Assembly (NCBI GenBank): GCA_022844275.1
Contig: JALHMB010000001.1
Location: 310,001-374,000 of the forward strand
Reading direction: 5' to 3'
Length of the DNA stretch: 64,000 bases
Source of the DNA: Hyphomicrobiaceae bacterium
Lineage (GTDB): Bacteria > Pseudomonadota > Alphaproteobacteria > Rhizobiales > Hyphomicrobiaceae
Shown here: positions 28,343 to 30,691 of the stretch, piece by piece
Position numbering within the stretch: the first letter of the stretch is position 1
Layout of the letters: every line of letters starts with the position of its first letter
The notes under the pieces: model-generated
Database searches by the model: none
What the model saw: the letters and a program-made list of their open reading frames with translations, nothing else
What the model was told of the DNA's origin: nothing
Made by a program: the position numbers and the translations under genes

Positions 28343-29428
28343 TCACCGCCCCTTCCGCTTGCCCACGGCACGCGTCGAGAAGCGCGCGTTACCGAGGCCC
28401 GTGCCGATCGTGAGAATGCCCCAGTGCTTGCGCTTCTGAGCGCGCGGCAGATGGCTCAGACCCTGCACGACGGCGTCGTTGTGCATCACGATCATCGTCT
28501 CATGATCGCCGATGTTCGGAATGCTCTCCGTGACGGCAGCGGGAAAGTTGAACCGGCTGCTCTCCCAATTCCCGGGCAGATTTTGCGCGCCTCGCGCGAT
28601 GCTGCCGTCCGACTCGATGATGCCGGGGCATCCGATACCGACCACCGGCGCGAGCGAGAGCTTTTCCTTCTTTGCCGTCTTGATCAGTGACTGGAGCAGG
28701 TCCGCCAGGTGCTCGACGGTCTCGGTGCGCGAGACCTTCTCATCGGCATGACGCCACAGATGCGACTCGGCAATACGGGCCGACGAGAGATCCTTGGCCT
28801 TGCCGAGGCGCAGCTCGACAATGCCGGCACGGATGTTCGTTCCGCCGACGTCGACGGCCAGCATGGCGTTGTGTCCGTCGAGCATCCATGCCGGCAGCAG
28901 GTGCGCCGCGCCGATGAGACCGGCCTCGTCGGGATGGTGCTCGATCAGCTCGAGATCGACATCGATGCCATCGGAACTGAGGAGCGCGCCGGCGCGACCG
29001 ATCGCAAGCTCGCCGATGCGGCTCGCGCGAAAGCCGCCACCGAAGACGATGGCCTCGGTCTCTGCCCAGGCCTTGTTCTTGAGAAAACGGCGAAGCACCG
29101 TGAAGAGCGCCTGCGCGTAGTCCTCGATTGCACTGAGAATGATGCCGGCAGCCTCGACCGAGCCGCTGGCGAGCAGCTCGTCGAGCTGCTTCTTGCTGAG
29201 CTCGTCCGTCTTAGCGTCACCGAGCGGATCATCACCCGTTACTGCCTTGTGATGCTTGCGCCAGTCGTCGAGTGCCTCGACGAAAGCGGCCCGGCGGGCC
29301 TTGTCGCCGAGAAAGCCGTCGGAATCCTCAAGCTCCAGGTTGTAGTTGTCGACCGTGACGCTCGGGAGCGTCGCGGCGCCATGCGTCGGGAGCGTCGGGC
29401 GATCGGCTGTATCGGCCATAGGGGGCAT
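28343..29428 (-). CDS. ROK/glucokinase-like ASKHA protein with circularly permuted motif order
   Basis: IVFGGGFRAS and DEAGLIGAAHLL precede MLAVDVGGTNIRAGIVE, GIGCPG and GILTIGTGLGNARF; start at 29428 or 29419. Confidence 0.85.
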   Translation of the reverse strand: MPPMADTADRPTLPTHGAATLPSVTVDNYNLELEDSDGFLGDKARRAAFVEALDDWRKHHKAVTGDDPLGDAKTDELSKKQLDELLASGSVEAAGIILSAIEDYAQALFTVLRRFLKNKAWAETEAIVFGGGFRASRIGELAIGRAGALLSSDGIDVDLELIEHHPDEAGLIGAAHLLPAWMLDGHNAMLAVDVGGTNIRAGIVELRLGKAKDLSSARIAESHLWRHADEKVSRTETVEHLADLLQSLIKTAKKEKLSLAPVVGIGCPGIIESDGSIARGAQNLPGNWESSRFNFPAAVTESIPNIGDHETMIVMHNDAVVQGLSHLPRAQKRKHWGILTIGTGLGNARFSTRAVGKRKGR

Positions 29429-29647
29429 CTCGGTTTTCTGGGAGGGTCCTGGGGGCGCGGACGAAGTCTGCGCCTGTCCGAAGTGAACGGCCGAATGTGC
29501 CGGCCGGTTCCCCATTCGAGGCGCGAAACGCCGTCATCAACGGCGTTAGCCTCCATTGGAGGCCGCACGACCGCACCCCCTTGCCCCCCGCCCGCAGGCG
29601 CGCAATAACCGGCGCGGCCTGATGGGCCTTTTCGAGGACAATGGACG

Positions 29648-30691
29648 ATGATCGCACTCCGCCCCCGCGTTTTCTCCGGCATGCAGCCCACGGGCAGCCT
29701 GCACCTTGGCAACTATCTGGGCGCGCTGATCAACTGGGTGTCCATGCAGAACACGCACGAGTGCCTGTACTGCGTCGTCGACCTGCACGCGATCACGGCC
29801 GATTGGCTCGATCCGGAGGAGCTGCGCCAATCGATCCGGCGCGCGGCCGCGGCCTACATCGCGTCCGGCATCGACCCGAAGAAGAGCATCCTCTTCAATC
29901 AGAGCCAGGTGTCCGCGCATGCGGAGCTGGCGTGGGTTTTCAATTGCGTTGCGCGCCTCGGCTGGCTGAACCGCATGACGCAGTTCAAGGAGAAGGCCGG
30001 CAAGGATCGCGAGAACGCCTCGGTGGGCCTCTACGCCTATCCGAACCTGATGGCGGCTGACATTCTCGTCTACCGCGGCACGCACGTGCCGGTCGGCGAG
30101 GACCAGAAGCAGCATCTCGAACTCGCGCGCGACATCGCCCAGAAGTTCAACAACGACTGGAACCAGGCGATTGCAGCGAGGGGCTATGCCGACGGAATCT
30201 TCTTCCCGCAGCCCGAGCCGATCATTCTCGGTCCGGCAACGCGCGTCATGAGCCTGCGCGATGGCACCAAGAAGATGTCGAAGTCGGACCCGTCCGATCT
30301 TTCGCGCATCAACCTCACCGATGACGCGGAGACCATCGCGCGCAAGATCCAGCGGGCCAAGACCGACCCGGACGCGTTGCCCTCCGAGCTGAAGGGCCTC
30401 GAAGGACGGCCGGAAGCCGACAACTTGACCGGCATCTACGCCGCACTCGCAGGGACGACGCAGGCGGAGACGCTGCGGCAGTTCGGCGGTGGGCAATTCT
30501 CGACTTTCAAGAAGGCCCTTTCCGAAGTCGCCGTCGCCAAACTTGCGCCGATCACGAGCGAGATGAGCCGCCTTTCCGCAGATCCGGCCGAAATCGACCG
30601 GATTCTGGCAGATGGGGCCAGTCGCGCGCGGGAGCTGGCCCAACCGATCCTGAACGAGGTGAAGGACATCGTCGGCTTCGTCCGTTCGTGA
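29648..30691 (+). CDS. trpS: Tryptophanyl-tRNA synthetase
   Basis: [28 protein letters not shown]. Confidence 0.97.

Follow-up and report, generated by a model that had tools for sequence, protein, structure and literature searches.

In a stretch of 64,000 nucleotides of a Hyphomicrobiaceae genome, hereafter called the window, one gene encodes a protein of 358 amino acids in which the motifs of ROK-family sugar kinases follow each other in the order adenosine GGG, AGLIGAA helix, DVGGTN phosphate-1, ND and GTGLG phosphate-2. The preliminary description of this DNA had read the arrangement as that of a ROK kinase whose chain has been cleanly permuted in a circular sense. This raises the question whether the protein is such a permutant, where its chain was cut, and what became of the enzyme. 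On the evidence presented below, the gene very probably encodes a naturally occurring, circularly permuted form of a sugar kinase of the ROK family (hexokinase-like, of the ASKHA fold), with the cut, fold, activity and single origin proposed here.

The gene is one unbroken open reading frame on the minus strand, 28343-29419, stop codon included, numbered so that the codon of residue n begins at 29419-3(n-1). The span of 28343-29428 initially given was right at its lower end, where the stop codon ends at 28343, whereas the start was moved 9 bases inward to 29419 according to family alignments with closely related genes. An antisense frame of 299 amino acids (28709-29608, plus strand) overlaps the gene and looks like a by-product of its high-GC codon usage. 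Downstream on the same strand lies a gene for a TRAP transporter substrate-binding protein (DctP, NF037995; 27013-28269), and upstream, in divergent orientation, that for tryptophanyl-tRNA synthetase (29648-30691, plus strand), a layout preserved in two close relatives.

Table 1. Motifs and structural parts of the permuted ROK-family protein, with their positions in the window.
Feature	Residues	Position	Strand	Evidence
His13, Gly14 and strand E21-26	13-26	29342..29383	-	conservation, model, profile alignment
Helical segment H43-61, H76-85, H88-114	37-114	29078..29311	-	rotation scan, models
Adenosine motif IVFGGGFRAS	124-133	29021..29050	-	sequence, conservation
Canonical C-terminal helix PDEAGLIGAAHL	163-174	28898..28933	-	sequence, profile rotation, model
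Phosphate-1 motif DVGGTNIR	190-197	28829..28852	-	sequence, conservation
Sugar-side region GIGCPGII...NLPGNWE	261-286	28562..28639	-	sequence, conservation
Catalytic base motif N314-D315	314-315	28475..28480	-	conservation
Phosphate-2 motif GTGLGN	339-344	28388..28405	-	sequence, conservation

The motifs lie nearly where they had first been placed: DVGGTN (residues 190-195, 28835-28852) and GTGLGN exactly so, the latter with 14 residues remaining before the end of the protein, and the adenosine motif close to its true span of 29050-29021, having been set at about 29033-29047. Their conservation is strict, as G127-G129, D190, N195, R197, N314, D315, T337 and G339-T340-G341-L342-G343-N344 are invariant in 61 of 61 non-redundant family members. 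In the same set N280, L281, P282, G283 and W285 of the sugar-side region and His13 do not vary either, and Gly14 is kept in 58 of the 61. Residues 37-114 are equivalent to the segment between phosphate-2 and adenosine of linear ROK proteins, as had been supposed for the N-terminal helical part and as profile rotation and the order of secondary-structure elements bear out, and the canonical C-terminal helix connects through a short linker to canonical beta-1. Residues 13-26 sit at the position of the linear ROK ExGH motif; judged by profile alignment and DSSP strings, strand E21-26, the first of the permuted chain, would represent strand three of the canonical C-terminal RNase H-like domain, moved to the N-terminus. 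Members from Bradyrhizobium (e.g., L072, L081, L085) bear long C-terminal tails of variable length, rich in Lys, Asn, Gly and Asp, after the last strand.

The ROK profile of Pfam (PF00480) covers only the second half of the protein, aligning residues 187-343 with profile positions 2-135 at 28.3 bits (gathering cut-off 22.9). For a comparison of chain orders, hhalign was used to align the profile of the 61-member non-redundant family with one built from 30 linear ROK proteins and rotated at every tenth column. Without rotation a single piece of 63.6 bits was obtained, confined to residues 69-176, whereas 133.1 bits in one continuous alignment of residues 69-348 resulted when the ROK profile was cut at columns 140-190, which lie past phosphate-2 (column 135) and ahead of the helical segment. 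The score of a linear control family peaked without rotation, at 263.5 bits, and five queries with shuffled columns reached 13-26 bits (maximum 25.8). Rotation thus rendered the alignment continuous and better for the permuted family and not for the linear control, and the re-linearised family aligned end to end with the linear ROK profile across all 301 columns. The same comparison in HMMER favoured the rotated over the linear model in all 123 members (median +10.7 bits); in one example member the linear model matched in two pieces of inverted order and the rotated model in one, and every permuted-family genome recovered with the re-linearised profile yielded two such inverted pieces. A second phosphate-1 motif N-terminal to GGG was looked for and is not present, and none of the 125 family reading frames contains a second copy of the domain.

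Structure prediction with AlphaFold2, run with the 61-sequence alignment, returned a single compact domain (pLDDT 94.3, pTM 0.92) with disorder at the extreme termini only, and not two separate partial domains. After rotation, its predicted secondary-structure elements pair one to one with those of a linear ROK protein from the same genome, modelled as a control (pLDDT 92.1): the linear elements E2-7, E11-17, E23-30, H36-55, E64-69, H93-101, E105-109, H110-121, E129-135 and E139-145 correspond to E185-191 through E342-349 of the permuted model, and H192-201, H209-217, H221-245, E249-253, H260-273, E282-284 and H289-298 to H43-61, H76-85, H88-114, E123-127, H134-149, E155-158 and H163-174. Foldseek, which aligns sequentially, found only half-length ROK matches for the permuted model (best 2yhy, TMq 0.37 over 168 columns), whereas the linear control obtained full-length matches with TMq 0.83-0.89 over about 304 columns (7p7w, TMq 0.89). 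Profile rotation, HMM comparison, order of predicted elements and this contrast with the linear control all uphold the reading as a clean circular permutation.

The family had been supposed to be possibly widespread. In the species-genome collection relatives are encoded at 575 loci or more, and the permutation is conserved in hundreds of bacteria associated with soil and plants. All full-length relatives examined are permuted, among them full-length homologues of the same order in the genus and family of the window. The best 80 of these loci include 73 from Alphaproteobacteria and two from Gammaproteobacteria (Steroidobacterales); 66 belong to Hyphomicrobiales, and Acetobacterales, Rhodobacterales and others are represented as well. 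In random draws from the class, 18 of 385 genomes gave a match at E <= 0.001, at least two of these matches being weak and linear, and a phylum-wide draw added more strong matches in other classes. Homologues also reside on rhizobial megaplasmids, including pSymB of Sinorhizobium meliloti 1021 (477074-478090), where the gene is labelled 'ROK family protein' in the record of another strain. Selection on the permuted gene is purifying: compared with two congeners, the gene of the window shows dN of 0.056 and 0.074 against dS of 0.61 and 0.79 (dN/dS about 0.09). Some genomes of the window's order gave two or three matches of the permuted gene (with second copies in G615 and G599), and one copy, split across two frames, looks broken (G760:C10:53336-54182).

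As for its place, the cut would fall in the loop that follows the phosphate-2 hairpin and links strands two and three of the C-terminal domain; linear ROK proteins bear ExGH and the zinc cluster there, and the old C-terminal helix would have been joined to the old first strand by the short linker. The folded product would be an ordinary two-lobed kinase, in which D190, GTGLG, GGG and D315 surround one cleft and a sugar receives phosphate from ATP or perhaps from polyphosphate. In ROK kinases the Asp equivalent to D315 serves as the general base, and nucleotide binding falls to the glycine motifs; the zinc cluster CxCGxxGCxE occurs in many members, though not in all. The earlier statement that all pieces seem present holds for the motifs of the ATP site and for the catalytic Asp, but not for ExGH and CxCGxxGCxE, which are missing and would both flank the new termini. 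The stretch aligned with ExGH reads (T/A/G)-H13-G14-A, the position of its Glu being variable (T/A/G/I/P) and that of its His mostly Ala, and no Cys cluster exists in the sequence or in the family consensus. Since the nucleotide and base residues are invariant while ExGH is gone, we infer an active kinase with an altered sugar pocket: the protein is probably a hexokinase-like sugar kinase, with a hexose (glucose-like) as its putative substrate and ATP or polyphosphate as candidate phosphoryl donors. With Glu and His of ExGH absent, the enzyme may act on something other than glucose or could have lost its activity.

The choice of donor leads to the linear relatives, and in particular to the view that the family is a permuted member of the polyphosphate-glucokinase (PPGK) branch which uses polyphosphate. 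NCBIfam gives partial ROK matches to the permuted protein, and the best of them is indeed polyphosphate--glucose phosphotransferase (NF045942), yet at 26.3 bits, over residues 187-345 only, it lies far under the family cut-off of 250. The re-linearised profile finds its best PDB match in 1woq, the polyphosphate/ATP glucomannokinase of Arthrobacter (E 1.2e-4), and the N-half profile scores 95.3 bits with PPGK-like proteins against 82.1 bits with other ROK proteins (cut 290), whereas a rotated PPGK profile reaches 108.8 bits and thereby less than the 133.1 bits of the rotated general ROK profile. A tree built from the half spanning phosphate-1 through phosphate-2 recovers the permuted family as monophyletic (support 100/99) and sets it on the PPGK side (91/87), a placement made unsure by the long stem of 2.66. 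Donor use, moreover, is not readable from sequence. Altogether, we regard a polyphosphate-dependent member of this branch as a serious but unlikely alternative to a permutant of the ROK kinases at large.

The tree of this half singles out no linear sister of the permuted clade, and no linear protein was found inside it. A scan of 385 genomes with the re-linearised profile for a close linear relative yielded nothing beyond weak matches of linear PPGK-like type or divergent ones; some linear proteobacterial PPGK-like proteins have a similar stretch after phosphate-2, with YVGDRTRDKIGNKRWNKRV in L233 compared with GFVGDRASxxAFxxxLxxWRK in the permuted family. By the simplest reading the permutation probably arose once, in Pseudomonadota; the route may have been a tandem duplication in which both outer halves were then lost, or a rearrangement to the same effect. 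No tandem-duplicate intermediate was found among the 125 family reading frames. One alphaproteobacterial genome carries three divergent linear ROK-like pieces in tandem (L230-L232, G089:C99:9211-11380), possibly a case of the kind of tandem duplication that could give rise to a permutation; the copy of 373 amino acids among them has GHASKL after phosphate-2 and lacks ExGH.

Gene neighbours were surveyed at more than 80 loci, and an assignment of function on their basis was rejected, as the contexts are lineage-specific and the gene therefore has no constant partner. It stands beside obg/rplU/rpmA in Bradyrhizobium, a mechanosensitive-channel gene in Bosea, genes for a 2-hydroxyacid dehydrogenase and CO-dehydrogenase-like proteins in Rhodoplanes-type genomes, and trpS and TRAP transporter genes in the genus of the window. 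In the Bosea-type loci L063, L064, L077, L088 and L092 a large MscK-like channel gene follows about 160-300 bp downstream on the same strand. Trehalose genes recur near the permuted gene in Hyphomicrobium and four other lineages: otsB, otsA or trehalase occurs within about 6 kb in Hyphomicrobium and in L048, L060 and L090 (of 80 loci), and at L192 otsB adjoins in divergent orientation at 132 bp. This recurrence is suggestive only, and it weakly favours a hexose (glucose) kinase. In another genome an otsB-like gene, identified by visual inspection of its sequence, is situated some 90 bp from a linear PPGK-like gene. The genome of the window itself has a linear glucokinase, Glk, near otsA (G000:C1:599406-601489; L140, L271) and another linear ROK gene, fructokinase-like (C1:408082-408984; L139). 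On plasmid p_2 of S. meliloti (L172:6624-9026) the permuted gene is divergent beside an 'osmoprotectant NAGGN system M42 family peptidase', and this peptidase, the trehalose genes and the mechanosensitive channels together hint at an osmotic-stress theme.

ROK repressors are relatives of the ROK kinases, and the protein could accordingly be imagined as a catalytically inactive sugar sensor or scaffold. Such a role would suit a gene that stands alone, without a constant metabolic partner, and a protein that lacks ExGH and the zinc cluster, both used in ROK sugar recognition; however, none of the 61 non-redundant members departs from Asp315, D190, GTGLG and GGG, the protein carries no DNA-binding domain, and in the predicted model the ROK-like fold covers the chain except for about 20 leading residues. 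We thus consider an inactive protein improbable. Finally, the notion of two partial genes fused by an assembly error or frameshift, or of a chance arrangement of motifs, to which the first-pass Pfam match over half the protein might have given rise, has a negligible probability and is refuted by conserved full-length homologues, the identical length, order and architecture recurring in hundreds of independent genomes under a dN/dS of about 0.09, together with a high-confidence single-domain model.

Natural circular permutations that preserve the active site of a complex two-lobed enzyme are uncommon, and we know of no account of a ROK or ASKHA kinase with a permuted chain. In agreement with the preliminary description, to which none was known, a full-text search of open-access papers, where absence is not proof, found none published. 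The gene has already been known by annotation as 'ROK family protein', and it appears that its topology was left undescribed. The permuted family is large and occurs in well-studied organisms (S. meliloti pSymB, Bradyrhizobium), hidden under the generic label because linear profiles see only half of it; annotation by linear HMMs can in this way miss an intact enzyme. The family also amounts to an experiment of nature on the importance of domain order for a hinge-closing kinase mechanism. Tentatively, and with slightly less than even confidence, it may be seen as an undescribed ASKHA-fold permutation of single origin, fixed in many Hyphomicrobiales and some other Pseudomonadota, with termini at the sugar-recognition loop and a loss of ExGH that accompanied a new substrate or donor.

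Compared with known systems, the permuted family shares DxGGTxxR, the PG loop, ND, GTGxG, GGG and the AGLxGAA helix as well as the predicted secondary-structure elements with the ROK kinases (PF00480; NanK, GlcK, N-acetylglucosamine kinase), but differs from them in its rotated chain order, in lacking ExGH and CxCGxxGCxE, and in its conserved WRHAD and GFxGDRAS segments, which none of the canonical ROK proteins aligned possesses. Glk (TIGR00749/PRK00292) and the hexokinases (PF00349) belong to the same superfamily, but represent a different subfamily of linear order without significant full-length similarity, PF00349 matching weakly and below its cut-off at phosphate-1. In sequence, the half from phosphate-1 to phosphate-2 is closest to PPGKs (NF045942; 1woq) and proteobacterial PPGK-like proteins, some of which carry a similar YVGDR...W..RV stretch after phosphate-2 and one of which is encoded beside otsB, as is the permuted protein at L192; unlike the permuted family, these proteins are linear, about 240 amino acids long, and have kept ELGH/ELAH-type motifs.
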